Source: a virus
Direction: 5' to 3' (one strand)
IMG/VR virus record: IMGVR_UViG_3300010150_000207
Location: 1 to 21,966 of that record
DNA length: 21,966 nt
The translations under genes were made by a program, and so were the position numbers. Under the pieces are notes generated by a model. That model ran no database searches. It was not told where the DNA came from and was given only the letters and a program-made list of their open reading frames with translations. This document shows positions 1,319-18,945 of this stretch, one piece after another (the first letter of the stretch is position 1; each line of letters opens with the position of its first letter).

Positions 1319-1771
1319 CTAAACTGTTGGAGCATAGTAATGTGCACCATAAAGGTCATTACACGCCTGAACTTTAAACGCGTCGAGTCTAAAACCTCCC
1401 CCTTCATTTAGTACATCCAACACCCATTGTTTCATTTGGTCTGTTGTTAAACTATTATGAGGAGTCCATCCACTAACAATTCCTGTGTACGGACTTGCAT
1501 CTCCATTTGCTCTAGATGCAGGAAAGAACCCTAGTTGGTATATTCCTGTAAGAGTTTGATCCGACTGTCCTTCTACTAAATGAGTTGCATTGGAAGTTGT
1601 TGTATCTGTTGCAGTATAACTTAAAAATACTTTATCTACAATCATCTCTAAATCTCCACAGTCTTTTGTTTCATGGTGTGAGTATGCCCAAGTAATATTT
1701 ATCTGACAATCCAAAGTTGTTGTTACTGCATTTCCATCACTATCTGTTCCTGTTTTTATTATCCAATTCAT
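1319..1771 (-). CDS. Hypothetical protein after the tail-tip gene (150 aa)
   Basis: I do not recognise a family. The protein has three Cys (DCQINITWAYSHHETKDCGD near residues 21-40 and ACNDLYG near 137), no signal peptide and no long hydrophobic stretch. The N-terminal half is strand-like (LDCQINITWAYSHH, DKVFLSYTATDTTTSNATHL), and the C-terminal half has a helix (TTDQMKQWVLDVLNEGGGF) that then returns to a hydrophobic segment FRLDAFKVQA. It begins eight bases after the J stop, with a weak AGG motif, and is followed by a 73-base gap with the only promoter in the window. An accessory tail or adhesion protein is likely by position only. Confidence 0.75.
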   Translation of the reverse strand: MNWIIKTGTDSDGNAVTTTLDCQINITWAYSHHETKDCGDLEMIVDKVFLSYTATDTTTSNATHLVEGQSDQTLTGIYQLGFFPASRANGDASPYTGIVSGWTPHNSLTTDQMKQWVLDVLNEGGGFRLDAFKVQACNDLYGAHYYAPTV

Positions 1772-1779
1772 ATTATTAC

Positions 1780-4700
1780 CTAAAATTTATCTGTCTGTTC
1801 CACGTTATGTGTTACAATGTTTTCTACAATATAAGTATCTGCATCTTCAACATTAAAGTTATAAGTTTGTACTTCTTGATTTATTCTCTGTTTACGCCAA
1901 ACTTTTTCTAGTACTAAATTATTTGTAACTAAGAAATCACCTTCTGCTATATCTTCTGCAGTTTTCCACATATATGTGTCTCCTCTTAATATTAAGAAAG
2001 GATGCTCATATGTTGCATGTACTTTTTCATTTAGTATATAGAACCATGTATAATAATCTACAAAGATTTCTTCTACTGTAGAAGTAGTTTTAGTTGTATT
2101 TACTAGTGTAGGAGCTGTCCAAGTTTTATAGGCATTTTCGTCGCTTTCACTTAAAGTAGTGTCTGTTATAGCTTCTAGTGAATCTCCAACTACTATATCT
2201 TGGACTTTTTTACTTGTACCGTCTGCCATCATTATATTTGAGCCGTAAACCAAGCAACCGCCGCCGCCGCCGCCGCCACCGCCGCCACCGCCGCCTCCAC
2301 CCGGAGGAGTTCCACCTGTTGTTAGTGTCCAACCTCTTTGGATTCCTCCAATAGTTACTGTTGTTGATTTAGCAGTTAAGTTTAAACTTGATGTAGTCAT
2401 TTGTACATTTACATAACTACCATTTGATATTTGTTGGCTACTTGTTCCAAAACTACCGTTATCGATTTTAAACTGTGCACTTCCACCCGCTATTGAAACT
2501 GTTTTTGTTCCTTGGAATCCACCAGTTACTTGTGTATTTGCGTATAGAGTAGTGCTTGTAGATTGTCCAACCAAATTACTAAAACTAAATGCAGGGTCTG
2601 TTGTACCAAATTTAACAAAATTATATTTAACAAATCCTAACTTAGAAACATTATTGTCTCCTTGAGCTGCTACATATAGATTTATTGTTCCTGTTCCTTC
2701 ATATTTAAATGAAACTGGAATCATTCCTTGTGTTCTTGAAGCAAAATCAGGGTTTGTTGAAGTACCTCCACTACTACTTGAACCTGTTACTGGAGGGAAT
2801 ACTCTAGATTCATGAATAGCATGGTCAATATTTCTACACAGTCTTGCACTAAATGGGCCAGATTCTTGTTGAGTAGCAAAAGTAACAGTAGTAGTACTAT
2901 TAGTATGTAAATTAGAACCGTCACTTACATGAAAATGTAATGTCTTGACGTGAGCTGTTCCACCTACTCCTGAAACTAAAATATTTCCTACATAATATCC
3001 TGGACCTGTGCCTACATCTCCAAGATACCTATAGTTCATATCATTATTAAAAAATGTTCCAATAGTAGTACCACTTACATTTGCTCCTGTTGAAGCTAGT
3101 GTAATATTTGCAGTTGTTAATGTACCTGCAACTGTAACATTGTTCCCTTCTAGTGTACCTTTAAATTTAGCATTTCCTGCAGTATCAATCATAAAAGTAT
3201 TAGAGGATATAAAACCATCTGATCCAAGGAGTATACCTCCAGTATTTAAGAAAGATCCGTTTCCTTGTGTGCTGTCACTAGTATTAAACTGACCGACAAT
3301 ACCTCCACCCGCTAAATGGAAAGTTGATATGCCCCATCCACCTACACCACCACCAACTACTGTTGATGAGTTATTTACTGCTGCATGGGTAACTTTTGAG
3401 TCTGCTGTACTTTGAGCTGCTGCTGCTGAGTTAGTAGCTGTATTTGCTTTACCATAAGCTTGTCCAGCTGTTGTAGCTGCTGCTGCAGCTGAGTTAGTAG
3501 CTGTGTTTGCTTTACCGTAGGCTTGACCAGCTGTTGAAGCTGCTGCTGCGGCTGAGTTAGTAGCTGTGTTTGCTTTACCAAATGCACTAGATGCTGTAGA
3601 AGCGGCTGCTGCTGCTGAGTTAGTAGCTGTGTTTGCTTTACCAAAAGCCTGACCAGCTGTTGTAGCTGCTGCTGCAGCTGAGTTAGTAGCTGTGTTTGCT
3701 TTACCAAAAGCTTGTCCAGCTGTTGTAGCTGCTGCTGCTGCTGAGTTAGTAGCTGTATTTGCTTTACCAAATGCACTTCCAGCTGTTGAAGCTGCTGCTG
3801 CAGCTGAGTTAGTAGCTGTATTGGCCTTAGAGAAAGCACTACCGGCTGTTGAAGCTGCTGCTGCAGCTGAGTTAGTGGCTGTATTGGCCTTAGTAAAAGC
3901 ACTACCGGCTGTTGAAGCTGCTGCTGCAGCTGAGTTAGTAGCTGTATTAGCCTTAGTAAAAGCACTTCCAGCTGTTGAAGCTGCTGCTGCGGCTGAGTTA
4001 GTAGCTGTATTAGCCTTAGTAAAAGCACTACCAGCTGTTGAAGCTGCTGACGCCGCTGAGTTAGTGGCTGTATTTGCTTTAGCAAAAGCACTACTAGCTG
4101 TAGAAGATGCCGCATTAGCTGCTGTAAAAGCATTGGCTGCTGTACCTGCTAGTGTTGATGTGGCTCCTGCTGTATTAAATGCTGCAACTGTTATACTTCC
4201 GCTAAAACTTCCTGTTGCGGCTTGTAGCTCTCCTTTAAATTTAGCATTACCTGCCGTATCTACATAAAATTGATTTGCTGAAATAAAACCGTCTGAGCCG
4301 AGTAAAAGTCCTCCTGTATTTAGGAAAGCAGCATTGCCTTGTGTACTATCGTTTGTATTAAAGTTACCTACAATTCCTCCACCTGCTAAATGATATGTTG
4401 TAATGCCCCAGCCTCCAACACCTCCTCCTACTATAGTAGAAGAGCTGTTTACACTTGCATGAGTAACTTTTGAGTCTGCTGTACCTTGAGCATTATTAGC
4501 TGCTCCGTGTGCTGTATTACCTTTATCAAATGCTGAGTTGGCTTGTCCAAAAGCTGAGTTGGCTCGTCCAAATGCTGAGTTAGCTTGTCCATGAGCTGTG
4601 TTACCTTTATCAAATGCTGAGTTGGCTTGTCCATGAGCTGTATTACCTTTATCAAATGCTGAGTTGGCTTGTCCAAAAGCTGAGTTTGCCTTATCGTCAT

Positions 4701-7700
4701 TTGTAAACCCAGAATCATTATTAAGATCTGATACATCTTTACCTGCAATACTAATTCTATTTGCATTGATAGTACCAGTTGTTATTCTTCCTCCGTCAAT
4801 TGTTGTTGTTCCGCTAGAACCTAAATCTCCTGATGTTAGTGCAGTAGTCGTATTACTACCGTCTGTTATTTGGTTAGTTCCTGTGAATGTTACAAGTCCT
4901 GTAAAGTTTTGTCCCTGATATGCTATAGAGAATGTAATAGTTGGAGTACTATCATTGAATTCATCTTCAACAACACTCCAATAAGCATACCAATACTTAT
5001 TTGAATTGCTACCTGTGTATGTTGGTTGTATCTGATTCCAATTTGTTCCACCTGTACCAATAACACCACCACTTAATAAGCTAGTGCCAAAGTTATATGA
5101 TACTCCTGCAGTTGAAGGATTGGTAGGTGCACTACCCGATGCTGATTGATAATAAATATATCCAGTAGCAGTCCTTGGTCCAGTTCCTCCTGGAGAACCG
5201 TCGTCACCTGATTTTGATTTTGTAAAAGTCTGTGCTTTTGTTACTGTAAGCTCGTTTTCTATATTAATAGAGTACTCAATCTCTGCGGTATTTGCTGCAG
5301 TTGTAAATGAACTGTGATTGCCTACTGTAACGTTTGCACTGTTTGTTGCTGTATTAAGTGTAAAACTACCCACACTAATATTAGTATCGGAGTTAGTTGT
5401 TACTGAGTATTGGTCATTAGTAGGCGTGCTTGTATTTGCCACAGGAGTCAGTCTTGTAGCGCCTCTAAATACTTCTATAAATGTTCCTGAATTTGTAAAG
5501 TCTGATACTACCCCTAATTTTGTAGCAGGGAAAGTATGAGCTTCATTTGATATTATTGTACTATATCCAGGACTTCCTTGTTGTAAAGAAGTAAGTGTTA
5601 TTGAGTCAAAAGCTAATTGTGTTTGGTTGCCGTCCGCTACTCCTACTGTAATTGTTTGTGGAGTAGTATTTATACTTGAAGGTACACTAAATGAGAATGT
5701 GTCTGCGTCTCCTGCGTTGCCATCCGTATAACTACCTTCATCAGAGATACCATCTCCTGTAAATTTAAAGAAAGGATTATCAAAGTTCTGTGCAGTTGCA
5801 GTTAAAGTAATTGTTCCACTTGGTTGGGGTGCTGTTCCTCCAGAGTTATATGCTATAGCATAATCACTTGCAGTTAAGCTTACTGTTCTTGAGTCTGTAC
5901 CTGCACCTGCTGCTCCAGGTATACTTTTACCTAGTGATATAACTCTTGTTGCTATAGTTTCATTGCTGTATCTATCTGTTACTGTTACTGTAATAGTAGC
6001 ATTTGTTTGAGTTATAGCACTTACGGTTATTACACCTGTAGAAGCGTTAATTGATGAAGTACAGTTAGAGTCTGATTTTGATAAACCAAAAGTGTTTAGA
6101 GCAGTACCACTACTAGCAAAGGAGTAAGCTATAGATCCTTTCTTTACTGTATATAAATTTGAAAAACTTGCAAAGTCACTGACAGCACCTGCAGCATTTG
6201 AAGGGAAGTTATGGTTTTCATTTGTGCCATTAACTGTGTACGCGTCTGTTCCTTTATTGCCACTAGCATAATTTATTATTGAGAAAGTTCCACTTGTATT
6301 TGCTACTTCTCCTATGATAGTGTCTTTTATTATATTCGGTTGTATTCTTTGTGCAAAGATGTTCTTATTAGATAAATTTGCTGTTGGATTGTATGCAACT
6401 TCTAATCTTGTATTATCGTATATGTGGTTGATTGTTGCTATAAAATGAGTAGAGCCAGTATGAAACTTAAATAAGTCTCCTGCTTCGTATTCTGTTGTAA
6501 AACTTGTGCCTGTACCTGTTACTAGTGAACTTCCTGCTGTTACTGTGGCTGTACCTGTTTTTTGTACGAAAGCTGTTGCATCTAAATTTTTAGCATATCT
6601 AAATGTTTCTGCTCCAGTATTATCTACAAGATACTCGATTGCTTTTAGTGGGTCAGTAGTATCACTGTAATCCCAGAGTAAATATCCTGTGTTTCCACTA
6701 GGTAAATTTGCAAAGCTACATGAAGTTTGTGCAGTTGTTCCGCTCGTTACTGTTATTGTTTGTAAATCACTTTCTGCGGGAGTAAAGTTATATGTGCTTT
6801 CTGTGAACTGTACTAAAGCATTGGATGAATCTATATTAAAACCTGTTGTTAATATACCACCTTTTCTTGCAATAGGTTCTAGATTTTTTGCAGGTTTTTC
6901 AGGATTAATAGTAATTCTTTTCTGTATAAAAGGAGAAGGTTGCCCTGAAGTATTAATAGTTCTTATTCTTACAATATATGTACCTGCTTTTGGTATATCT
7001 TTAAAAGTAAAGCTTTGTCTTTCAGGAGATACCTCAACTCTATCAAAAGTAGGTTTACCTTGTGTTGATTGTTGAGTATATAAGTTATGTTCTATTTGAA
7101 AATTTTGTAGGTGTTCGTAAGGGGACTCAATCTGAGTGTCGTTATCATCAGTTCTTAAACTTAATGGAATACCCCAATATACATCTAATCTTGGAGCTAC
7201 GAATCTCTCTTCTAAAGAACTAGAAATATCTGCGTTGTCTGCATCATCTACTAGTCCTTTTTGTACTTTTAGAGTTACGTTTCTTGGGGAAGGAACACCA
7301 TCACTAGATTTTGGAGGTCTCATCACATCAGGTATAGCAGGAATACTCCATCCTCTATCTACTTCATCAAATTTGCCTACAGTATGCTTTGTAGCTGATA
7401 TAGAGAAACCTTTATCAGTACTTTCATTAATCTGACTTATCATGTAAGTTTGAGGAGAACCTGCTAATTTTTCTCCACTTGCTGTAGTTTGTGAAATAGC
7501 AAAGATTACTTCTTCATCAGGCGCGGCACTAAAAGCTGAACTTACAACTACGTGTGTTGTATTATAAGAACTTATTGCTTTTGTTTCTATTCTGGCATCT
7601 TCTGACCAAGCAATATCTAGTACATCTCCATCATCATCTCGTGCATTTACAGAATCTTCTTTAGAGTCTAAGTTATATAAGGAGTCTCCGCTATTTTTTG

Positions 7701-10257
7701 CTTGAAGTATTAAATCTCCTTGATTGTAGACTACACTATTAATTACAGCGCTTGGCTGAGCTAAATAAGCACCTGATTTAGGAAAAATAAGAGTTAAGTC
7801 AGAGTTAGCAGCAGAACTTAAAGCTACCGATCTATCTACAGGAATTACTGTTGTTGTTGCTCCACTAGAAACTCTTCCACTTAGTTGTACATTATCTCTG
7901 TCCGCATCTTGAACTTCTATTAAGTCTCCTGGTCTCAAAACTTGAGTACCAATACCACTAACAAAAGATACAACCTCACTATCATTAATTTCAGTTAATA
8001 AATGATATTTACCCACTCTATGTGCTTGTGCTTGTGAAGTACACCCAAAAGCTAATGTTGTTTTTTCTACTATTCTTCCTGTTTTTGCTATATTCTCACT
8101 ATCTTCTACTAATTCTACGGCAGGTTTATAATGATTTTCTGGGTCATTCCAAGTTACTCGTATTTGATTGGCTCTTACTCTTTTAGAAGGATATTGATAA
8201 GTAAAACCTCCTTCTACTACATTTCCTTTTGTAAATGTAAATATAGGTGCTTTTTCTTGTTGTACATTTAAAGAAATTTCTCCGTTATGCCATAGTAATA
8301 TACCTCTAAACACGCTCATAAGTTGTTTAAGTATTTTTATGGCTTCTGATGATTTAGTAATATATACATTGCACTCAAAACGAGGTTCAAGTCCATTATC
8401 TCCATTTGATACTAACTCATCGCAATATTTTGCGACTTCAAATAGTTGGTATTTGTCTATTAATTCTTGGCTTCCATCAGGGTCTAAATATTTACCTAGT
8501 CCATACCTTTCATTAGTAAGAATATCAAAAAATATCCAAGCTGGATTAGTTGTATAGACAGGGAGATGGTTTATACTATTAGGGTCAGAGAACTCTTTTT
8601 TGTCTCCTCTAAATTTACCGTCCCAATCCTGGTAAGTACTTTCAACAACTCCTGAACTTATATTTCTATTATAAGAAGCTACTGTTGTTCTATTTCCATT
8701 TGCATCTAAAGTATCTTTGGGTATGTAGTTTGTTGGTACTTTACATTTTATACCTCTTATCTCATAATGTCTTTGAGGTACAGTAGTAGCATCTTTAGAG
8801 TCTACCATTATAGCAGCTAAAGCAGTATATGGATAGTTTAATTTATCTTCTATAATTGCTTCTGCAAAACTAACTTGAGTTATATTGTTATAAGATTTAT
8901 TAGTTATATTGTAAGGATCTGGTGTATATCTTCTAACTTTTATAGTAAAGTCATCAAATGGTTGAAATTGCTCTGTATCAAAGCTAAAAACTGTTGCAAA
9001 TTGTGTAGCAATTTTTCCTGAAATTATAGCATCATGCGCTGACATATTAACATTTACAGGTCTAGAGCCATCTTTTTCTCTAGGGATAGAAGCCATGTCG
9101 TCTAGTCCAAATACTGTTTCTTCAAAAGTTTGTCCATCTCTTGTGTATGAAAACACTATTCTAAGTTCTACCCAGGCATTTCCACTATTGCCGTCTTCAG
9201 AGTCACTATTATTTAATCCTGTAGGATGATTAATAGTAACTTTTAATTGATCAATAATAGAAGGGTCTGATACATTAAATAGGCTCGCTGCAATATTAAC
9301 ACCTGCATGTGTTATAGGATCCATTTCTTCGCCCGCATGGTCACGTAATTTATTATTTGCATTTCTAGGTTCGCTTGTCATACCTAAAGCACTTTGACTT
9401 GAGGCAGGTAAGTCGGAACCTATTGCTACTCCAACTGCTCCTGAACCGACTCCTTCAGGTGATTTTATAAATTTTTGGTGTCTATGTCCAGTTCTAAAAG
9501 CATAAGAAAAGTTATTAAAGTTATATATAGGAGCACTGTCTTCAGTTAAACTAGGAGAGCTTAAAGTAGTAGGAACATTAGTTCTATCCACTCCTTGTCC
9601 TACAGGAGCTATAGTAGCATTACTACCACTAAAAGAAGCTGCCTGGTCTACTAAATCTACCGTTGTTACTGCATTAGTAACTGTTGTTTTAGGAGGAGGA
9701 GAAATGTTAACTGTGTTGTTTGTGCTATCAAATGATGTGATAGTTGCAATATGAACTCCGCCATCTAGTCCTGCTCCTGCAATTCTTATTTTAGGTTGCA
9801 TGTCAACTAGAGTTGTTAAGTTTCCTGCTACATGAGTATTTGCAAAAGTTATTCCTCCACTGGAGCTAGGGGTTACTAAATTTGTATTTGCTGATACATT
9901 AGCATTACCAACTGCCGCTCCTCCATCTATTCTTACATACCTTGTTCCATCATTAACTGATAAGCCTGAAAACATATTTCCAGATTGATTATCTGTAATT
10001 GTACCTGTACTAGCATCATATGAGGTATTAGAACTTTGTTTAGCAGTATAAGTAGTACTTAATGTTTTATCAAGCACAGGAACACCGTCTAAATAAATAG
10101 TATACGCTCCATCTACTAAACCTTCAATTTCTCCTTCTGATAGGACATCGTAGACTACTGCAGATTGATCAATTATTTCTGATTTTTTCTTTAGAGGCAA
10201 AGATCCCTTTGCGCTACCTGTACCTGCTATTCCTGTTCCAAATCTTTTATTAGTCAT
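1780..10257 (-). CDS. J: Tail tip / host-specificity protein J-like, with Gly15 and C-terminal Hint domain (2825 aa)
   Basis: Residues 1-60 carry the J signature (SAVVYDVLSEGEIEGLVDGA), and about 560-780 the tip core (PAWIFFDILTNERYGLGKYL, RGILLWHNGEISLNV). A fibronectin type III-like region lies near 1010-1120. Residues about 1340-1795 are Ig-like repeats with collagen-like Gly linkers; DGGRITTGTINANRISI follows. Heptad arrays at 1856-1929 and 2059-2287 alternate with two copies of an 85-residue module (1927-2011, 2285-2369). A further beta domain (about 2570-2650) precedes Gly15 (2653-2667) and a Hint domain (2668-2818). Lambda J has 1132 residues. No Shine-Dalgarno motif is seen; it starts one base after the I stop, so coupling is likely. 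Lambda J binds the receptor and starts tail assembly. The gene is one open frame, not a fusion from a frameshift. Confidence 0.93.
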   Translation of the reverse strand: MTNKRFGTGIAGTGSAKGSLPLKKKSEIIDQSAVVYDVLSEGEIEGLVDGAYTIYLDGVPVLDKTLSTTYTAKQSSNTSYDASTGTITDNQSGNMFSGLSVNDGTRYVRIDGGAAVGNANVSANTNLVTPSSSGGITFANTHVAGNLTTLVDMQPKIRIAGAGLDGGVHIATITSFDSTNNTVNISPPPKTTVTNAVTTVDLVDQAASFSGSNATIAPVGQGVDRTNVPTTLSSPSLTEDSAPIYNFNNFSYAFRTGHRHQKFIKSPEGVGSGAVGVAIGSDLPASSQSALGMTSEPRNANNKLRDHAGEEMDPITHAGVNIAASLFNVSDPSIIDQLKVTINHPTGLNNSDSEDGNSGNAWVELRIVFSYTRDGQTFEETVFGLDDMASIPREKDGSRPVNVNMSAHDAIISGKIATQFATVFSFDTEQFQPFDDFTIKVRRYTPDPYNITNKSYNNITQVSFAEAIIEDKLNYPYTALAAIMVDSKDATTVPQRHYEIRGIKCKVPTNYIPKDTLDANGNRTTVASYNRNISSGVVESTYQDWDGKFRGDKKEFSDPNSINHLPVYTTNPAWIFFDILTNERYGLGKYLDPDGSQELIDKYQLFEVAKYCDELVSNGDNGLEPRFECNVYITKSSEAIKILKQLMSVFRGILLWHNGEISLNVQQEKAPIFTFTKGNVVEGGFTYQYPSKRVRANQIRVTWNDPENHYKPAVELVEDSENIAKTGRIVEKTTLAFGCTSQAQAHRVGKYHLLTEINDSEVVSFVSGIGTQVLRPGDLIEVQDADRDNVQLSGRVSSGATTTVIPVDRSVALSSAANSDLTLIFPKSGAYLAQPSAVINSVVYNQGDLILQAKNSGDSLYNLDSKEDSVNARDDDGDVLDIAWSEDARIETKAISSYNTTHVVVSSAFSAAPDEEVIFAISQTTASGEKLAGSPQTYMISQINESTDKGFSISATKHTVGKFDEVDRGWSIPAIPDVMRPPKSSDGVPSPRNVTLKVQKGLVDDADNADISSSLEERFVAPRLDVYWGIPLSLRTDDNDTQIESPYEHLQNFQIEHNLYTQQSTQGKPTFDRVEVSPERQSFTFKDIPKAGTYIVRIRTINTSGQPSPFIQKRITINPEKPAKNLEPIARKGGILTTGFNIDSSNALVQFTESTYNFTPAESDLQTITVTSGTTAQTSCSFANLPSGNTGYLLWDYSDTTDPLKAIEYLVDNTGAETFRYAKNLDATAFVQKTGTATVTAGSSLVTGTGTSFTTEYEAGDLFKFHTGSTHFIATINHIYDNTRLEVAYNPTANLSNKNIFAQRIQPNIIKDTIIGEVANTSGTFSIINYASGNKGTDAYTVNGTNENHNFPSNAAGAVSDFASFSNLYTVKKGSIAYSFASSGTALNTFGLSKSDSNCTSSINASTGVITVSAITQTNATITVTVTDRYSNETIATRVISLGKSIPGAAGAGTDSRTVSLTASDYAIAYNSGGTAPQPSGTITLTATAQNFDNPFFKFTGDGISDEGSYTDGNAGDADTFSFSVPSSINTTPQTITVGVADGNQTQLAFDSITLTSLQQGSPGYSTIISNEAHTFPATKLGVVSDFTNSGTFIEVFRGATRLTPVANTSTPTNDQYSVTTNSDTNISVGSFTLNTATNSANVTVGNHSSFTTAANTAEIEYSINIENELTVTKAQTFTKSKSGDDGSPGGTGPRTATGYIYYQSASGSAPTNPSTAGVSYNFGTSLLSGGVIGTGGTNWNQIQPTYTGSNSNKYWYAYWSVVEDEFNDSTPTITFSIAYQGQNFTGLVTFTGTNQITDGSNTTTALTSGDLGSSGTTTIDGGRITTGTINANRISIAGKDVSDLNNDSGFTNDDKANSAFGQANSAFDKGNTAHGQANSAFDKGNTAHGQANSAFGRANSAFGQANSAFDKGNTAHGAANNAQGTADSKVTHASVNSSSTIVGGGVGGWGITTYHLAGGGIVGNFNTNDSTQGNAAFLNTGGLLLGSDGFISANQFYVDTAGNAKFKGELQAATGSFSGSITVAAFNTAGATSTLAGTAANAFTAANAASSTASSAFAKANTATNSAASAASTAGSAFTKANTATNSAAAAASTAGSAFTKANTATNSAAAAASTAGSAFTKANTATNSAAAAASTAGSAFSKANTATNSAAAAASTAGSAFGKANTATNSAAAAATTAGQAFGKANTATNSAAAAATTAGQAFGKANTATNSAAAAASTASSAFGKANTATNSAAAAASTAGQAYGKANTATNSAAAAATTAGQAYGKANTATNSAAAAQSTADSKVTHAAVNNSSTVVGGGVGGWGISTFHLAGGGIVGQFNTSDSTQGNGSFLNTGGILLGSDGFISSNTFMIDTAGNAKFKGTLEGNNVTVAGTLTTANITLASTGANVSGTTIGTFFNNDMNYRYLGDVGTGPGYYVGNILVSGVGGTAHVKTLHFHVSDGSNLHTNSTTTVTFATQQESGPFSARLCRNIDHAIHESRVFPPVTGSSSSGGTSTNPDFASRTQGMIPVSFKYEGTGTINLYVAAQGDNNVSKLGFVKYNFVKFGTTDPAFSFSNLVGQSTSTTLYANTQVTGGFQGTKTVSIAGGSAQFKIDNGSFGTSSQQISNGSYVNVQMTTSSLNLTAKSTTVTIGGIQRGWTLTTGGTPPGGGGGGGGGGGGGGGCLVYGSNIMMADGTSKKVQDIVVGDSLEAITDTTLSESDENAYKTWTAPTLVNTTKTTSTVEEIFVDYYTWFYILNEKVHATYEHPFLILRGDTYMWKTAEDIAEGDFLVTNNLVLEKVWRKQRINQEVQTYNFNVEDADTYIVENIVTHNVEQTDKF
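1804..2256 (-). other. Hint (intein/Hedgehog-like) domain at the J C terminus
   Basis: This is a 151-residue domain (residues 2668-2818 of J) with intein blocks in order. Block A is CLVYGSNIMMADGTSKKV, with Cys1 and the ADGT and VGD motifs. Block B contains TYEHPF (Thr2749, His2752, TxxH). Block F/G is YNFNVEDADTYIVENIVTHN, ending in His-Asn. No homing endonuclease is inserted. After Asn there is Val, not Cys/Ser/Thr, and only seven residues (VEQTDKF) before the stop. Known chemistry predicts an N-S shift at Cys1 and cleavage at the N junction, with possible Asn cyclisation; canonical splicing is not expected. This resembles bacterial intein-like domains. All motifs are seen; activity is inferred. 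Confidence 0.88.
2257..2301 (-). repeat. Fifteen-glycine tract before the Hint domain
   Basis: Fifteen consecutive Gly codons (residues 2653-2667): ten GGC, four GGT and one GGA, so the tract is strongly GC-rich against an AT-rich gene. It is preceded by two Pro codons and followed directly by the Cys1 codon of the Hint domain. Confidence 0.97.
3151..3405 (-). repeat. Duplicated J module, copy 2
   Basis: Residues 2285-2369 begin ADSKVTH and contain GGGVGGWGI, LAGGGIVG, NTGGILLGSDGFIS and TAGNAKFKG. Differences from copy 1 are mostly conservative (Tyr/Phe, Ile/Val, Ser/Asn). It is followed by AGTLTT and the distal beta region of J. Confidence 0.9.
3397..4083 (-). repeat. Tandem 63-bp repeat array in J (11 copies)
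   Basis: Residues 2059-2287 hold eleven near-identical 21-residue units (GKANTATNSAAAAASTAGQAF and variants; each is three heptads). First residues of the units differ in blocks (A, T, S, G), as expected from expansion by unequal recombination. The frame is kept throughout, so copy-number changes would only change stalk length. Confidence 0.93.
4225..4479 (-). repeat. Duplicated J module, copy 1
   Basis: Residues 1927-2011 begin ADSKVTH and contain GGGVGGWGI, LAGGGIVG, NTGGLLLGSDGFIS and TAGNAKFKG. It is a paralogue of the copy at 3151-3405: by eye about 70 of 85 residues are identical. Each copy directly follows a heptad array, so array plus module forms a repeated unit. Confidence 0.9.
4471..4692 (-). 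repeat. Heptad repeat array 1 in J (Ala/Asn-rich)
   Basis: Residues 1856-1929 are about ten 7-residue units of the forms AFGQANS, AFDKGNT and AHGQANS. Ala at positions one and two or three apart in a 7-residue period suggests a trimeric coiled-coil stalk. The DNA shows 21-base periodicity. Confidence 0.85.
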
Positions 10258-12871: not shown

Positions 12872-15800
12872 TATATAGTACTTAAAAGTCCTCCTGCTCG
12901 TTGTTCTTTAGCGATTGTATCTTGTGCTATCGCTGCTATTGTTTTTCCTAGTTCTCTTGCTCCATCTCCTGACATTAGAGTTTCAGATCCTCCATTTTGA
13001 TCTACGTTTACAGTAACATTTACATTATTGGTTCCGCCTGAGCCTGACATTTTTACAGGTATACTTCTATCATTTCCTAGTGGTACAACTGCTTCTGTAC
13101 CGTGTAGGGTTGCGTTATACCCTGCTTCTGGACCTGCTGCTATACCTCCTCCTGAGAAAGATTTTCCTGAAGGACTAATAATTCCACCGTATCGACCCTT
13201 TGTTGGTACTCCAAATGCACTAGATAACTGTAATGCCATTTCTGCCATTGCGAGTGCCATTTGAATTTTTGCTACTTCTAACATAATATCTGCGGCTTCT
13301 TCTTGTTTTCCTGCGAGTGCAAATCCTTGTGCTGTTAGTGTAGCAAACTGAGTAATTGCTGTACCAAACTCCATTACATTTTGACCAAACTTATTTTCAC
13401 CAATTGTTTCCATAATATTTGGAAATAGTTCTCCTGCTTTTTTACTAAAATATCCAGGGTCTATACCGCCGGCAGAAGGTTGAGTGCCGGTTTTAGTAGT
13501 AGGTGCATTAGGATCGTTTGGCTTTTCTTCAGAAGTAGGTACAAATCCAGTAGTTGTAGGCGCACCCGCTTTTATTTCATCAAGCTCCTCTACCGCGTTT
13601 CCTACTGCTTTATCGAGTTCAGTAAAAGTTAGTCTTGCGCCGTCTATCTCTTGATTTGCTATTGAAAGTTTTTGTGCATTATCGGTAACTTGTTCCCCTA
13701 GTGATAGAAAGTTTCTTCGTACCTGTTCTAACTCCTCATTTAATTTTGCAATAACAGGGCTTTCTTTAAATAGGGCTTTTGACTGTTTTTGCATTGCTGG
13801 AGTTTCTTTTCCTAATTGGGCTGCTATTCCTGATGGTGTTGTAAACTTATTGAAGAATTTTTCTACACCTGATTCTTTTCCGTAAGGATCCCCTGCTGCG
13901 TGTCGTGCTATATTAGCTACTCTGATTTTGTTTTCTTCGTCTTTTATTTGTTGAGCAATTTCTCTCATTCGAGCTGTATTTTCGTTTTGAGTTGTTATTA
14001 CACTGCCGTCTGTACCGAATTTCGCTATTGTTTGTTCATATCCTTTAACTGTTTTACCTTGCTCTGTTCTAGCCGCTTCAGCTGATGCAACTTTGGCTTC
14101 TGCAAGTGCTTTTTTTGCATTATACAAACCATTTATATGATGATTTGCTGCTTTATGCATTGCTCCACCAATTAGATTTGCTGCTCCTGTAGCTCCTCTT
14201 TGGAAGGGTGAGTTATCATCTGTAAATCCTTCCTTAAATGAATCTTTTAGTTGTTGTTTAAATACTTGTTGTTGAAATCTAGGGTCTAATGGAGTACCTC
14301 CATAAGTTATTTTCATAATATTATTTGCAACTTGTTTACCCATTTCATCTGTAAGTTGTTTTGCTATATTTTTACCGAAATCTTTAAATGCGTCTTTTTC
14401 TCCTCTTAGTGCTTTACCTAAAGATGTTCCTAATTCTTCTGTAAGACCTTCCATTGCCATTTTATTAATTCTAAATAAAGTTTTTTCCATTAACATAGTA
14501 GCTGCTAAAGTATCTAAAGCAGTCTCTTCCATTAATTTTGCATTTTTAAGTTGAGCTTCTCTAATTTTTTTCTCTTCTGCACCTAAGTTATCTGTTATGT
14601 TCTGCTCTGCTTGAAATACTGCTGTTTGTGCTTCAAACATTTTCTTCATAGCACCTGCAGTTTTATACGCCGCGTCTGCATCTTTTTTCTCTCCAAATAC
14701 AGAGTTAGTTGTACTAGCAACTTGTTGTTGTGCTATAGCCATCATTTGCATAATTTCTACATTTGCCATTGCTAAGAATTTATAGGCTTCCATTTTACCT
14801 AGTACTATATCTAACTGTTTCTCATATGCTTCTGTTTCTTCTGTAGTGTTACCTTGTGCCTTTATAAGCTGCTGTAATGATAATACCATTTGTTCTTGAG
14901 ATATTATAACATTCTGATAAGGAACTTTTGGTAAGGCTTGTGCAAACTGATTAATCTGTTTAGACGCGTTTGCAGTTGCTTCTTGTAGGGATTTAACAGC
15001 TTGTCCTGATAGTACATTCTCTGCTGAATATTTTCTCATTGCTCCTACAGAACTATTTAATAGTACAGGATTTGTTTCTAGTTGCTTATTAAACTTTGCA
15101 AATCTAGGGTCAAACTTAGTTAAAGTGTCAAAAGTTTTTGACAATTCATTTCTAAGGTTTATTACTTCTTCGTTATCTCCTCCAAGAGCTTCAAACATGG
15201 CATTATACTCTGTTATTCTGTTTTGTAAATCAGCACTTTGAAAAGCATTACCAATTGATTCTATTTCTTGGCTACGAGTAGCAAACATGTCTTTATCAAA
15301 AACTTTAGCTGTTCTTTCTAGTTCGTCGTTTAATCCTTTTTGTGTTTCTGTAAGTTTTTTAGTCTTATTTTCTAGTTCTTCTATTGTTTTATCTACACCT
15401 CTAAATCTTTCATATAAACTTTTTCCCATCTGGACAAGCATAACTGCTATTCCAACAAACCCTGCAAATCTCATTATACCATTAGCAACTTTACCTAAAG
15501 CTACAAAACCCATTTTTATTGTACCCATAACTTTACCGTGCTCTGCTTGCATAGTGTAAAGTTCCATCACAAATTGGGCTCTCATTCTTGCAAAACCTCT
15601 AGTGGATTCTACTACCATCTGTTGTCTTTGTAGTTTAAGAAGATTGAATGTTCTAGTAGCTTCTGCTCTACTAACATTTTCAAAAGTAAGTAAACTAGTT
15701 GTTTTTGTTTTTAAAGAATTTTGGTATTGAGCAACATCTTTATCAGTATAATTACCTGCTAACATTCTTTCTTTTCTTGCTTTTGATTCATTAGTATTTC

Positions 15801-16803
15801 CATCTAAGAGTAAATTACCTAAATTTTGTTGAATCTGATTAGAAGCTCCTCTAGTATCTATTTGAGGGATTGCTTGTCTAATTAGTCCACCAGATATAGT
15901 CGCTGCAAATACACCTAAAGCTGCAGTAGCCGATTCTATATTTTCTACTAAGAATCCACCAAAAAATTCTGCAATTGGCCCTATAAAGTTTCTAAAGTTA
16001 TTTAAAACTTCATCAAAAGCAACGCTGAGTTTGTTTAATTGGTTGACTGAATCGTCTCCAAGCATTTCTGCAATAGCTCCGTATCGCTCTTCTGATTGAC
16101 GAAGAACTTCGTTTGCAACGGCTTGGGATTTTTGAAAAGTGGTAAGTTGATTTTTGTTAAGACCTAATGCAGAAGCATATCTTATTGATGCTTCTTCTAA
16201 TCTTAGAATAATACCGAGTTCGTCTAGTAATTCGGGTTCCGCTTTGGTAACACCACGAACAAGACGATTGAATGAGTCTGTTACATCTCGACCGAGTGCA
16301 ATAGAGACAATTTTAGCACTTTCACCAAGTTCTTTTAACTGACCTGGTGATAGTCCTGCAGCAAGTCCGATAGCTGCGGCTTGTGAAGCTTCTTTGAATG
16401 TTATCTGAGCTGCGGTAGCTGCTTGAATTTCACGAGCAATAGTTTTCATTGCTCTACCTGTTGTAGCTGCAAAAGCTTCTTGACCTTCCATAAGTACTCG
16501 GAAGTCAGCAGCATCTTTTAGAAATCTAAATAAAGCATCAATGGCGAATAACTGAGCGGCTAAAGTAGCGTATGCAGGAACTAGCCCTCCTGTAATACCC
16601 TGAGACATCTTACTAAAGTTTTTAGTAACATTGGATGACATTTGTGCCACACCTTTTCCGGCACGGTCAGCTGATGATGCGTTTTTATCTAATTGATTAA
16701 AACCTGCTCCAGCTTTTTTTGCATCCTTTTCTACTTTATTTAATCCAGAAGCAGTGACCTTAAAGTCTACCTGACCTCCTGATTTCTTTTTTCCTCCTGC
16801 CAT
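12871..16803 (-). CDS. H: Tape measure protein (1310 aa)
   Basis: It sets tail length and is packed inside the tube before ejection. It is the longest gene directly after G/GT. The protein is mostly alpha-helical: N-terminal coiled coil with Lys/Ala (residues 1-70), hydrophobic segments at about 70-95 (LVPAYATLAAQLFAIDALF) and 425-460 (GIMRFAGFVGIAVMLVQMG), long charged coiled coils to about 1090, then a Gly/Pro-rich region with the GPEAGYNATLHGTEAVVPLG motif and a strand NVNVTVNVDQNGG, both typical of the end of tape measures. With about 0.15 nm per residue the tail would be near 200 nm, an inference from the known scaling. No lysozyme or peptidase motif was recognised. AGGA/AAGG lies just before the ATG; the stop overlaps the next start (TAATG). 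Confidence 0.93.
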   Translation of the reverse strand: MAGGKKKSGGQVDFKVTASGLNKVEKDAKKAGAGFNQLDKNASSADRAGKGVAQMSSNVTKNFSKMSQGITGGLVPAYATLAAQLFAIDALFRFLKDAADFRVLMEGQEAFAATTGRAMKTIAREIQAATAAQITFKEASQAAAIGLAAGLSPGQLKELGESAKIVSIALGRDVTDSFNRLVRGVTKAEPELLDELGIILRLEEASIRYASALGLNKNQLTTFQKSQAVANEVLRQSEERYGAIAEMLGDDSVNQLNKLSVAFDEVLNNFRNFIGPIAEFFGGFLVENIESATAALGVFAATISGGLIRQAIPQIDTRGASNQIQQNLGNLLLDGNTNESKARKERMLAGNYTDKDVAQYQNSLKTKTTSLLTFENVSRAEATRTFNLLKLQRQQMVVESTRGFARMRAQFVMELYTMQAEHGKVMGTIKMGFVALGKVANGIMRFAGFVGIAVMLVQMGKSLYERFRGVDKTIEELENKTKKLTETQKGLNDELERTAKVFDKDMFATRSQEIESIGNAFQSADLQNRITEYNAMFEALGGDNEEVINLRNELSKTFDTLTKFDPRFAKFNKQLETNPVLLNSSVGAMRKYSAENVLSGQAVKSLQEATANASKQINQFAQALPKVPYQNVIISQEQMVLSLQQLIKAQGNTTEETEAYEKQLDIVLGKMEAYKFLAMANVEIMQMMAIAQQQVASTTNSVFGEKKDADAAYKTAGAMKKMFEAQTAVFQAEQNITDNLGAEEKKIREAQLKNAKLMEETALDTLAATMLMEKTLFRINKMAMEGLTEELGTSLGKALRGEKDAFKDFGKNIAKQLTDEMGKQVANNIMKITYGGTPLDPRFQQQVFKQQLKDSFKEGFTDDNSPFQRGATGAANLIGGAMHKAANHHINGLYNAKKALAEAKVASAEAARTEQGKTVKGYEQTIAKFGTDGSVITTQNENTARMREIAQQIKDEENKIRVANIARHAAGDPYGKESGVEKFFNKFTTPSGIAAQLGKETPAMQKQSKALFKESPVIAKLNEELEQVRRNFLSLGEQVTDNAQKLSIANQEIDGARLTFTELDKAVGNAVEELDEIKAGAPTTTGFVPTSEEKPNDPNAPTTKTGTQPSAGGIDPGYFSKKAGELFPNIMETIGENKFGQNVMEFGTAITQFATLTAQGFALAGKQEEAADIMLEVAKIQMALAMAEMALQLSSAFGVPTKGRYGGIISPSGKSFSGGGIAAGPEAGYNATLHGTEAVVPLGNDRSIPVKMSGSGGTNNVNVTVNVDQNGGSETLMSGDGARELGKTIAAIAQDTIAKEQRAGGLLSTI

Positions 16804-17603
16804 TTACCTTTTCCTTTTAGCTTCCTTTTGCTTTCTTGCTACCTCGGTGTTAATCGAGTCGGCTCTTTCTCTATCTATTGATTTCATAAAGAACACAACT
16901 GTCTTTTTATCTTCTATTTCGTAAATGTCTAGTAATTCTCCAAGACCTGACAAATTTTTTCCCATATACATACCACTCATACCGTCCCATGTATCTTGTA
17001 ATAGACTACACATAAAAAATGCCAACTGCACTTCATATGGGTATATATCTATAGCAGGAGGCATCTTATCAGGGTCGGGCTCTTGGCCTAACTGTTCGCA
17101 TACAGCGAGATATTTATCTAAGTCAATGCTTGTTTCTTTGTATTGTCTTTTTAATAAAGCAAGTATTTGTTCTACTTGCTTTTGGTAAAATTTTCTAAAT
17201 CACCTAGCATATCAGAAACCCAGCTATCAAAATCTCCAGAATTTTTTAGTAGTAATTCTGCGTTATCTGATGAAAACTCTAAACAGTCATCAGCGTTTAC
17301 GTCACTAATGTCTACTAATAAGAGCTCGTTTAAGTAAGAATACTTTAAACCTTTCCAATCTTTAATAACTGCTTTAGAGTATTCTACTAAAAATTTATCG
17401 TTATCAAGTTGCTCTTCGTATGCTCTAGTTCTTTTATTTAGAACTTGCTTTATTGCTCTGCTTCTAAGTTTTAGCAATTCTTCTCTTGCTAAGTATGTTA
17501 ATTTTACTGCGAAACCGTCCATTCCTGGAAACTCGATTTCGACTGTTTTACTTGGAGTTAATAAACTCTTCAGTGAAACTTTTGGTTGTTTTTGTTCCGT
17601 CAT
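16804..17603 (-). CDS. GT: Tail assembly chaperone, long form by -1 frameshift (lambda gpGT-like)
   Basis: The G frame is joined to a second frame by a -1 shift: bases 17603-17187 are read in the G frame, then base 17187 is re-read and translation continues to the TAA at 16804. This gives 266 residues (lambda GT has 279). After the shift the protein reads YQKQVEQILALLKRQY and continues through the Met at 17064 without a stop. The added part is helical and contains PYEVQLAFFMCSLLQDTWDG and a basic end. A separate start at 17064 is unlikely, because no Shine-Dalgarno motif precedes it and the frame is open up to the slippery site. In lambda the T part links the chaperone to tube subunits. The stop is immediately followed by the tape measure ATG. 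Confidence 0.87.
17172..17603 (-). CDS. G: Tail assembly chaperone, short form (lambda gpG-like)
   Basis: This 143-residue protein (lambda gpG has 140) lies between the tube and tape measure genes, where siphovirus tail assembly chaperones are found. It starts with a disordered lead (EQKQPKVSLKSLLTPSKTVE), then a strand pair (VEIEFPGMDGFAVKLTYLARE) and helices (ELLKLRSRAIKQVLN), with an acidic C-terminal part (VDISDVNADDCLEFSSDNAELLLKN) similar in organisation to the family. The role is to bind the tape measure protein and recruit tube subunits; it is not kept in the virion in lambda. AGGA lies 6 bases before the ATG. A slippery heptamer five codons before the TAG gives the longer GT product. 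Confidence 0.85.
   Translation of the reverse strand: MTEQKQPKVSLKSLLTPSKTVEIEFPGMDGFAVKLTYLAREELLKLRSRAIKQVLNKRTRAYEEQLDNDKFLVEYSKAVIKDWKGLKYSYLNELLLVDISDVNADDCLEFSSDNAELLLKNSGDFDSWVSDMLGDLENFTKSK
17187..17193 (-). promoter_or_regulatory. Programmed -1 frameshift heptamer A-AAT-TTT
   Basis: On the minus strand the zero-frame codons AAT TTT are preceded by A, so tRNAs can re-pair on AAA TTT one base back (an X-XXY-YYZ heptamer). It lies in the only overlap of the two frames: the new frame has a TGA just upstream, and the G frame ends at TAG (17172) four codons downstream. A Shine-Dalgarno-like AGGTG (17201-17205) lies 7 bases upstream and could stimulate the shift, as in dnaX. I did not find an obvious strong stem downstream. 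Confidence 0.85.
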
Positions 17604-17613
17604 TTTTTATCCT

Positions 17614-17640
17614 AAAAAGTGGGAGAGCCTAAGCCCTCCC
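17614..17640 (-). terminator. Intrinsic terminator after the tail tube gene
   Basis: On the minus strand GGGAGGGC pairs with GCTCTCCC (8 pairs including one G-T wobble, loop TTAG), followed by AC and five T residues. It lies between the tail tube stop codon and the Shine-Dalgarno sequence of the G chaperone gene, so it should reduce transcription of everything downstream. Confidence 0.88.
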
Positions 17641-17652
17641 GAGTTTGTTTTA

Positions 17653-18945
17653 CTACGATACGTAAGTAAGTTTTACTTCGTTTGTAGCTGATGCAGCCGT
17701 ACCTGATGATAAGTCTGTCGGTAAACCGTGGAAAGCCACGTCTACTGATACTACGTCATCAAAGCTGTGTGTTGGTAGTTCTAGATGAGCTTTGTCTACT
17801 TCAACGTCTACTTTTGGAGTGTTTCCACTTCCTCCAATAGAGAATTTCAAGTCAAAAGCGTTAGTAATAACACCTCTTGATTCTTGTAATCTTTCAAATA
17901 AGTCTAATGACCCATTTGCTGTATCGTTTAAGTAACAGGTAAAGTTACCTGAAACTGATCTTGTTCCCATTACATGTCCTAATGGTAGGTTAACTGAACC
18001 TAGTGTTTCTGGTGTTAAATAACTTAGATTGTTTTCAATCGTAATGTTACCACCTGTTAGTGTTACTCCGTAAGTTACATCATTTGTTCCATCAACTGCT
18101 AATGCACCTAGTGTACCATCTGATGCTGATACATCAAAAATGATTTCTAAATCTGTTAGCTTTTGTCTAATAAAATTGCCTGTTGAACTTATTCCTTCGT
18201 TTACTATGCCTAAAGCTGTAGTTCCTGTCACACTGTTACCAGAGTCTGTTGCTCTAGTTTCTAAAGTTGCTACTTCTTCTACACTTTTACCATTTCCAGA
18301 CCAGCCAATTTGTGCTAATCCATCAATATCAAAGTCTATTGAAGCTGAACCTACTGAACAGTCTGCTAGTTTATAAACCGTTACTCCGTCTGTACCAGTT
18401 GTATAAGTATTGCCTTCAGAATCCTTAGATGCTCCTAGTACAAAGAATAAATCAAATGTACCTAAAGTAACTTGGTTTGAGTTTGCAAAATTAAACACAT
18501 TTGGCTCATAAGCTGCAGCGGTTGTAGGGAAGTTCCCTCCAGATCCTTTGTTATAGCTAGTGCCTTCTTCTGTTCCACCTGGTGCAGACATAGCTGACCA
18601 TAATGGGCCTTCTACTGCAAACTTTTTAGCATTACCTGCGTGTTGTCCGTTTGTTGCACCATCTGTAATTGCTGATGCGCTTCCTGAACCTGACGTAGTT
18701 GGCCTCATATAAGTTGAAAACGACCATTCTGCTGGCGCAAAAGAGTCAGTAAACATTGCTCTACCTCTTTTTGAGTAACCAGTTGAATTTGCTGCTTCAC
18801 TTAAAGTAACCTCTGATGTATTTGTGCCTTGACTAAAAGAAAATCCATCTAATACAGGTATCTCATAAAGAGCTGTATTAGCTGTAGTTCCATCATAGCT
18901 ATGAGTCATAAATACTTTGGTATCTCTACTAAAGAAAAATGCCAT
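17653..18945 (-). CDS. Major tail tube protein (430 aa)
   Basis: The protein forms the tail tube by stacking rings around the tape measure. Evidence is mainly context: it lies between the tail terminator gene and the G/GT chaperone genes, exactly where lambda V sits, and it has its own intrinsic terminator, as expected of an abundant product. The sequence is predominantly beta with many Gly, Ser and Thr residues. It opens with FFFSRDTKVFMTHSY and an LDGFSFSQGTNTSEVTLSEA segment like the first strands of tube proteins. At 430 residues it is longer than lambda gpV (246), so extra surface domains are likely. A strong Shine-Dalgarno sequence (AGGAG, 6 bases before ATG) fits high expression. Confidence 0.8.
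   Translation of the reverse strand: MAFFFSRDTKVFMTHSYDGTTANTALYEIPVLDGFSFSQGTNTSEVTLSEAANSTGYSKRGRAMFTDSFAPAEWSFSTYMRPTTSGSGSASAITDGATNGQHAGNAKKFAVEGPLWSAMSAPGGTEEGTSYNKGSGGNFPTTAAAYEPNVFNFANSNQVTLGTFDLFFVLGASKDSEGNTYTTGTDGVTVYKLADCSVGSASIDFDIDGLAQIGWSGNGKSVEEVATLETRATDSGNSVTGTTALGIVNEGISSTGNFIRQKLTDLEIIFDVSASDGTLGALAVDGTNDVTYGVTLTGGNITIENNLSYLTPETLGSVNLPLGHVMGTRSVSGNFTCYLNDTANGSLDLFERLQESRGVITNAFDLKFSIGGSGNTPKVDVEVDKAHLELPTHSFDDVVSVDVAFHGLPTDLSSGTAASATNEVKLTYVS

Follow-up and report, generated by a model that had tools for sequence, protein, structure and literature searches.

A BIL-type Hint domain at the C terminus of a phage J-like tail-tip protein and its proposed self-removal in maturation

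The window analyzed here, a stretch of 21,966 nucleotides (positions 1 to 21,966 of the IMG/VR virus record IMGVR_UViG_3300010150_000207), encodes on its minus strand a J-like tail-tip protein of 2825 amino acids (1780..10257), which ends in a Hint domain. With a probability of roughly 60%, this C terminus of J represents a type A BIL-type Hint domain that removes itself in the course of maturation. This reading is supported by the fold, the intact catalytic set, purifying selection, the C-terminal place and the finding that J cores occur with a Hint domain, with a Peptidase_S74 domain or with neither of them; from these observations we infer the cleavage itself, its timing and its service to assembly.

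The host range of a phage is set by its tail tips and fibers, and Peptidase_S74 is a well-known self-cleaving maturation domain at the ends of such proteins. Here, the tail Hints suggest a little-described route by which the host-contacting part of a phage is trimmed or finished. If true, a second and chemically different self-processing domain would stand in the place of Peptidase_S74, which would mean convergent self-removal in receptor-binding machines.

The Hint domain of the J-like protein

The minus strand of the window represents a phage tail module, in which ORFs matching minor tail proteins and a tail assembly protein are followed by J; further upstream lies an ORF of 1310 amino acids, which by size only would fit a tape measure protein. 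The ORF of J matches phrog_31 'central tail fiber J' in the PHROGs search (E 9e-118) as well as the Pfam family Phage-tail_3 (E 5e-19). Within J, the matches to lambda_TipJ and to the J families of PHROGs fall on a core of 285 amino acids (7770..8625, minus strand), which served as the query for relatives with other ends. By eye, long alanine-rich near-repeats (KANTATNSAAAAASTAGSAF) are visible at about 3390-4110 of the window (J residues ~2050-2290) and perhaps form a coiled stalk. This part of J also gives weak matches to models of XopAD and SMC.

In front of the Hint lies a domain (2302..2985, minus strand) that is conserved together with the Hint in Hint-bearing relatives, with 41-90% identity to the window in an alignment of nine sequences. 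Its model is poor (mean pLDDT 57.1) and therefore no fold is assigned to it. Using the J segment directly before the Hint as a query, matches were obtained only in Hint-bearing loci or in contigs ending there. The linker that follows consists of 15 glycines (residues 2653-2667; 2257..2301, minus strand), the last of which is Gly(-1). Consecutive GGN codons encode it, so that G+C reaches 89% here compared to 36.5% for the window. Two contigs (L123 and L124) end within this poly-glycine tract, and since they break off in such a GC-rich stretch, Hint ends may go missing in assemblies.

The BIL-type Hint domain including its C-terminal tail comprises residues 2668-2825 (158 residues; 1783..2256, minus strand, as are all features of the domain). 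Cys1, the predicted nucleophile of an N-S acyl shift, is Cys2668 (2254..2256) and stands directly after the 15 glycines. Block B contributes the TxxH motif as TYEH (residues 2749-2752; 2002..2013), Asp2807 (1837..1839) is found at the place of block F position 13 (F:13) as judged by the spacing to His-Asn, and the His-Asn pair of block G corresponds to residues 2817-2818 (1804..1809). After the Asn only the seven-residue tail VEQTDKF follows before the stop (1783..1803), and no endonuclease insert is present. The original prediction, made from the letters of the DNA, had described a complete Hint with its full catalytic set at the C terminus of J. Motifs, fold and profile bear this out, its residue numbers for Cys1, TxxH and His-Asn are exact in the translation, and so are the missing endonuclease and the seven residues behind Asn starting with Val.

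An HMM search and a structure prediction had been proposed as checks. Taken alone, residues 2668-2825 match the Pfam family Intein_splicing with E 2e-6, which lies below the curated cut-off, and PT-HINT with E 1.5e-5 and a score of 25.7, by which the cut-off of 27.7 is missed; phrog_38766 is matched with E 3e-11. The AlphaFold model, built with 51 aligned sequences, displays a Hint fold with a mean pLDDT of 92.6. Against this model, 87 of the 997 aligned PDB chains reach a Z-score of at least 5, and all 50 PDB entries listed are inteins, BIL or Hedgehog domains. The top match is 6y75, BIL2 of the Tetrahymena BUBL1 locus (Z 20.7, 1.7 Å over 139 residues), followed by 2lwy, a BIL domain of C. 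thermocellum (Z 19.0, 1.4 Å over 131 residues), and further down by the Ssp DnaB intein (Z 18.5) and Hedgehog 1at0 (Z 17.4). The profile of the 51 Hint sequences yields the same order, with 2lwy at 1e-16, 6y75/6tmm at about 7e-15 and the first intein only at 7e-11. Thus, by structure and by profile the domain is nearest to BIL domains, ahead of inteins and Hedgehog, and the predicted Hint fold of the J C terminus is firm.

With Cys1, TxxH, His-Asn and no nucleophile at +1 (Val2819), the window presents the features of a type A BIL domain. A class 1 intein has Cys, Ser or Thr at +1 and is inserted inside a conserved host protein, which splicing makes whole; in the window Val2819 occupies +1 and merely seven residues stand behind the Hint. 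Neither the sterol-recognition region of Hedgehog (Hog) proteins nor the toxin domain of PT-HINT proteins is present in these seven residues after Asn. An intein that has lost its endonuclease was rejected, as there is no C-terminal extein and no +1 nucleophile, and a coincidental motif match was rejected by fold and profile.

Conservation and spread of tail Hints

Searching with the window Hint by tblastn resulted in 37 phage records, of which 27 belong to Erwinia phages, nine to Vibrio phages and one is phage NCTB. The Vibrio matches are probably ordinary inteins, since in the one of the nine stretches inspected the Hint is embedded in a longer gene and followed by Cys at +1, and others are annotated as DNA helicase. 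More queries added Dickeya phage AD1, Yersinia phage fHe-Yen9-02, Alcaligenes phage Afa-NA1 and Salmonella phage Sen-NF as well as matches in phage records of Proteus (4) and Ruminococcus (3). The Hint is located at the gene end in Erwinia phages SNUABM_5 and Y3, Dickeya AD1, Yersinia fHe-Yen9-02, Alcaligenes Afa-NA1 and NCTB. These genes are annotated as tail, tail fiber or virion structural, with gp132 of NCTB being termed 'large intein domain protein'. NCTB harbors three Hints, two in fiber-like genes, where GGGG directly precedes Cys1 and seven amino acids stand between HN and the stop, and one stand-alone copy. Such stand-alone Hint-like genes directly behind a tail-Hint gene are seen in L009 (7698-8159, gp135 of NCTB) and L010 (6474-6938); both are without Cys1 and TxxH, keep the C-terminal His-Asn and look as if they were one half of a pair.

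In IMG/VR, a profile scan with patterns containing TxEHP and VE..D.Y revealed 164 relatives, the best 80 of which were taken. Together with the loci found before, these make up a set of 71 different Hint-to-end sequences, which, because the window and its near relatives are among them, is also given as 29 clusters at 50% identity. Where the host genes of the Hints could be assigned, in phage records as well as viral contigs, they are mostly tail or fiber genes. For nine representative relatives, the PHROGs search returned tail families for three (L052, L071, L074). For L044, L047 and L060 the families matched were solely virion-structural or unknown ones, and L070, L080 and L082 gave no match.

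Among the 68 sequences reaching position 1, Cys is present in 64 and Ser in two, the remaining two being stand-alone copies. TxxH is kept in 65/68, and the terminal pair is HN in 70 sequences and YN in one of the 71. Cys1, TxxH and HN occur together in 63/68, or in 65/68 if Ser1 is allowed. The +1 residue, on the contrary, is nearly free, with 15 kinds in 71 sequences, no Cys, three Ser and seven Thr. In the 51 aligned Hints T82, H85, H150 and N151 are invariant, and ranking the 160 columns of these 51 sequences by conservation places Cys1 7th and +1 137th; here, the TxEHP and VE..D.Y scan patterns themselves account in part for the conservation seen at T, H and Asp2807, so that only Cys1, His-Asn and +1, which these patterns do not contain, are free of this bias. 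Twenty of the 71 sequences are missing from the alignment, including L018, both stand-alone copies (NCTB and L010), three truncated ones (L014, L015 and L061), those taken from the phage collection and near-copies. At the place of F:13, assigned by the spacing to His-Asn, Asp is found in 41/51 and Asn in 10/51; in inteins this position is most often His, according to the part of PMC4031507 consulted.

Over 12 Hint pairs dN/dS ranges from 0.07 to 0.33, and the selection acting on the Hint is purifying. Since Cys1 and His-Asn are kept and +1 is free, both junction chemistries appear to be maintained and canonical splicing does not. At the level of sequence, a catalytic set that is kept together with a nearly free +1 is what characterizes BIL domains of type A. 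As a control, large phage inteins were matched without any demand on +1: in the 26 rows obtained, two of which were set aside by eye as chance matches to HN, Ser, Thr or Cys stands at +1 in all 24 recognizable junctions, near-copies included.

The surroundings of the domain vary more. Gly occupies -1 in 37/68 sequences, with Asn, Ala, Pro, Leu and others in the rest, and in 34/68 the 12 residues before the Hint contain a GGG run; poly-glycine is therefore common yet dispensable. The tail after Asn has at most 25 residues in 56/71 (six in L015). Two loci, L049 (1954-2448) and L051 (3448-3942), carry Ser in place of Cys1 and an acidic stretch between poly-glycine and Hint, with TxxH and HN kept. 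L018 harbors a degenerate Hint without TxxH and with YN at its end.

Alternative ends of J cores and the exchanged cassette

The profile of the J core (285 aa) detected 433 relatives, and from 80 of these 433 loci the 30 in which the 3' end of the gene is present form the complete J set. Five of the 30 end in a Hint (L142, L153, L154, L179, which is the same contig as L002, and L190), two end in Peptidase_S74 (L162 and L163; PF13884, E 3e-18) and none has both. The other 23 end in neither domain, as called by a two-sequence S74 profile and the Hint profile on all 30 and by Pfam on 10 of them. A self-removing end is therefore inessential for the J core. The J of the window itself gives no match to PF13884 (Peptidase_S74) at E up to 1.

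A tree was built from 29 cores, 28 of the 30 (two near-copies were dropped) and the window. On this tree the Hint label needs three changes, all three forced by well supported branches, and these may be gains or losses. The Hint ends appear at three separate places, two of them beside near-identical cores without Hint: L190 (Hint) and L192 (no Hint) have almost identical cores, and L179 (Hint) is placed among L171, L185 and L187, which are all Hint-less. Still, the label is clustered, as only 2 of 500 shuffles were as low. Outside this set, an S74-like ORF is found close to a Hint gene in L054-L058, L059, L062 and L076, and since both occur nearby in those loci, S74 and Hint are not alternatives everywhere.

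Downstream of J, the window encodes a protein of 150 amino acids (1319..1771, minus strand), which is weakly DUF7936-like and part of an exchanged cassette. PF25590 (DUF7936) matches 10 of 10 aligned members of this gene (best E 7e-7), the copy of the window giving only E 0.006, below the cut-off. DUF7936 is the only match worth naming in Pfam; in the PDB no match was obtained, and PHROGs contained nothing better than E 0.019.

The borders of the cassette are seen in pairs of relatives. L179 and its Hint-less sister L185 share 93.9% identity over 9.5 kb up to L179:11904, the next 1.9 kb are without any match of at least 150 bases, and 97.4% identity resumes at L179:13831, where the 150-aa gene ends. 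What has been exchanged in L179 is therefore the last ~490 residues of J including the Hint plus the 150-aa gene. L190 and L192 likewise rejoin just behind the 150-aa gene (L190:15485, 86.7%), with the upstream border blurred by repeats. To judge from these alignments, the Hint end recombines as a cassette together with the 150-aa gene. In L185 four small genes of 140-236 amino acids (15115-17279) take the place of the cassette before orf112.

Within the core set, all five complete J genes with a Hint are followed by a homologue of the 150-aa gene, which starts 3-44 bases past the last codon of J. By contrast, it follows none of the 18 other J genes for which the region downstream is present (16 with neither end, two with S74), as recognized by a match to orf112, the next gene. 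Seven more complete Hint-less J genes, behind which neither gene is seen within 40-5649 bases, are left out of this count. The loci are related and the counts are not independent, so the three placements on the tree are the better measure. In loci selected for their Hint, the 150-aa gene is also found behind it in L002-L005, L049, L051, L061 and L082. In the other tail-Hint families examined, the HMM of the gene yielded only E 0.074 on the opposite strand in the near-copies L080, L089, L093 and L094. PF25590 gave four matches in 34 records, all in the J family of the window; this search is insensitive, as L005, which has the gene, was missed. Since the other families examined are without it, the 150-aa gene is tied to this J end and not to Hint chemistry in general, which weakens it as a general partner. 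The recurrence of the Hint in many phages, Peptidase_S74 in the same place in two relatives and this linked downstream gene had not been foreseen by the original prediction.

In L170, downstream of a Hint-less J, a 132-aa gene (17578-17973) shows a weak Hint-like match (E 3e-7), with no His-Asn in its last 12 residues.

Proposed maturation, known systems and outlying loci

In the proposed maturation, the receptor-facing end of J would fold first. Cys2668 would then attack the carbonyl of Gly2667 in an N-S acyl shift, helped by TxxH, to form a thioester, and Asn2818 would cyclize with the help of His2817, cutting the chain after Asn2818. The Gly thioester would be resolved mostly by water, leaving J with a poly-glycine stub and releasing the 151-residue Hint and the 7-residue tail. 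This follows the scheme given for type A BIL domains, in which Cys1 forms the thioester, Asn cyclizes and the thioester is hydrolyzed or taken by the freed amino group (PMC4031507, in the portion available). Release of the Hint would be the simplest useful outcome, because the tail is short and poorly conserved and a glycine linker stands in front. Its role would be like that of Peptidase_S74, which caps tail fibers and cuts itself off after folding; such ICA (S74) domains help tail spikes to fold and trimerize and then cleave themselves, as described in the accessible text of PMC3742443. Since S74 ends occur on the same kind of core, this analogy suggests that Hint and S74 do the same job. 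Counting against self-removal, Gly stands at -1 in little more than half of the sequences, most complete J relatives, 23/30, have neither Hint nor S74, and S74-like ORFs stand near Hint genes in other loci; moreover, the conservation of His-Asn would be unexpected if only the N-terminal release mattered.

Covalent attachment and ligation of the tail share their first step with self-removal. In the former, which appears unlikely, an amine or other nucleophile of a neighboring virion subunit, of the 150-aa protein or of the host surface would take the poly-glycine terminus of J. The closest solved fold is the BIL domain of the Tetrahymena BUBL1 locus, and loci of this type conjugate ubiquitin-like modules, for which no paper was found in the literature search; in addition, the 150-aa gene belongs to the cassette, and Hedgehog relies on just such a Gly-Cys thioester for its reaction with cholesterol (PMC5874633, as far as its available text goes). 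However, the seven residues behind the Hint leave no sterol- or substrate-binding extension, and the 150-aa protein can be no general acceptor, as the searches for its gene next to other tail-Hint families did not detect it in those examined. The chemistry also does not need a conserved His-Asn, which is not kept in Hedgehog, and for a host amine or lipid nothing was found that favors attachment over hydrolysis. That the Hint thioester acts as a one-shot ligase, joining the poly-glycine end of J to an amine on a tail subunit, on the 150-aa protein or on the host envelope, is a rather improbable variant; if true, it would give a covalent link within the receptor-binding apparatus. As the Hint passes through a thioester, covalent linking in the virion is directly testable in cultured phages carrying it.

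In type A BIL splicing, the freed amino group of the tail would attack the thioester, so that J ends in poly-glycine-VEQTDKF and the Hint is gone. The original prediction had held canonical splicing to be impossible without a +1 nucleophile; its lack does not rule out splicing, since type A BIL domains can splice without one (PMC4031507, again for the part seen). Both junction residues are conserved, and within some clusters the tails are alike, such as TDIVAQAEKT, TDIVAKAEKK and VDLVSKAEKN in Erwinia, Dickeya and Yersinia phages. Furthermore, L074, L083, L084 and L100 have 103-111 residues behind the Hint (with an fn3 match in L074, the one tested), where the sequence would allow either ligation or release. 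Nevertheless, this outcome is doubtful for the window: tails are mostly short and vary even among its close relatives (VEQTDKF, SEQVKE, ALAIKE), by which little would be gained from splicing, and cleavage products dominate in the type A BIL domains studied, as reported in the same accessible part of PMC4031507. With respect to Gly2667, where cleavage or attachment of a nucleophile had been expected, cleavage at Gly2667-Cys2668 is still likeliest; Gly2667 alone proved too narrow, since the Asn side is selected at least as strongly as the Cys side and a prediction has to cover both junctions.

An inactive Hint, serving as a folding or trimer cap or being an old intein remnant, would be in line with the loss of parts in L018 and in the stand-alone copies of NCTB and L010. 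A remnant, however, would lose its catalytic residues, and with Cys1, TxxH and HN kept together throughout most of the 29-cluster set this reading is quite improbable. Least probable is a Hint of the polymorphic-toxin type by which a C-terminal cargo would be set free in the host. In favor of it, tail proteins come into contact with the host and one of the weak Pfam matches is PT-HINT, but the few residues behind the Hint, in the window as in most of the family, leave no cargo, and no PADLOC defense family was matched; toxin release is thereby largely refuted.

Compared to known systems, the tail Hints share with type A BIL domains (2lwy, 6y75) the Hint fold, Cys1, TxxH and His-Asn, the absence of a conserved +1 nucleophile and of an endonuclease. 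They differ in Asp or Asn at F:13, where His is usual in inteins, and in their place at the end of phage tail proteins, with a GGG run before half of them and few residues behind. With Peptidase_S74/ICA they have in common their position at the C terminus, seen on the same J core in L162 and L163, and, by analogy, the proposed self-removal after folding; no sequence kinship was found, and the chemistry of Peptidase_S74 is different. Canonical class 1 phage inteins possess the same fold and catalytic residues, but have Ser, Thr or Cys at +1 and sit inside a longer protein. The Hog domain of Hedgehog resembles the Hint of the window in fold, C-terminal place and the Gly before Cys1, whereas the tail Hint offers no room for a sterol-recognition region and keeps His-Asn.

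Already known are the Hint fold and its chemistry, as well as single genes labeled 'contains intein domain' in NCTB and Erwinia phage Y3. The latter belong to the same family with the same gene-terminal place; they differ in being fiber-like genes of phages of ~260 kb instead of a lambda-type J, and the records state no function. In the literature searched, whose coverage is partial, neither a C-terminal BIL-type Hint that recurs at the end of phage tail proteins nor S74 in the same place or the cassette was found. C-terminal tail Hints are not described in the accessible parts of PMC5259590, PMC3556154, PMC5526547, PMC6143709, PMC7664689, PMC5874633, PMC8213781, PMC4031507, PMC3742443, PMC6669764, PMC6690015 and PMC7765530, and the words intein and hint are absent from the paper on Dickeya phage AD1.

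A scan of genome contigs revealed five further Hint loci, three in Planctomycetota MAGs and two in Streptomyces. In one of the former, a Phycisphaeraceae MAG (L134, 4350-6600), two tandem Gly-rich Hint genes lie downstream of an ORF that by eye is tape-measure-like, and this locus is perhaps a prophage. It resembles a cluster of viral loci, L064-L114, in which Asn occupies -1 and the tails comprise 47-106 residues.
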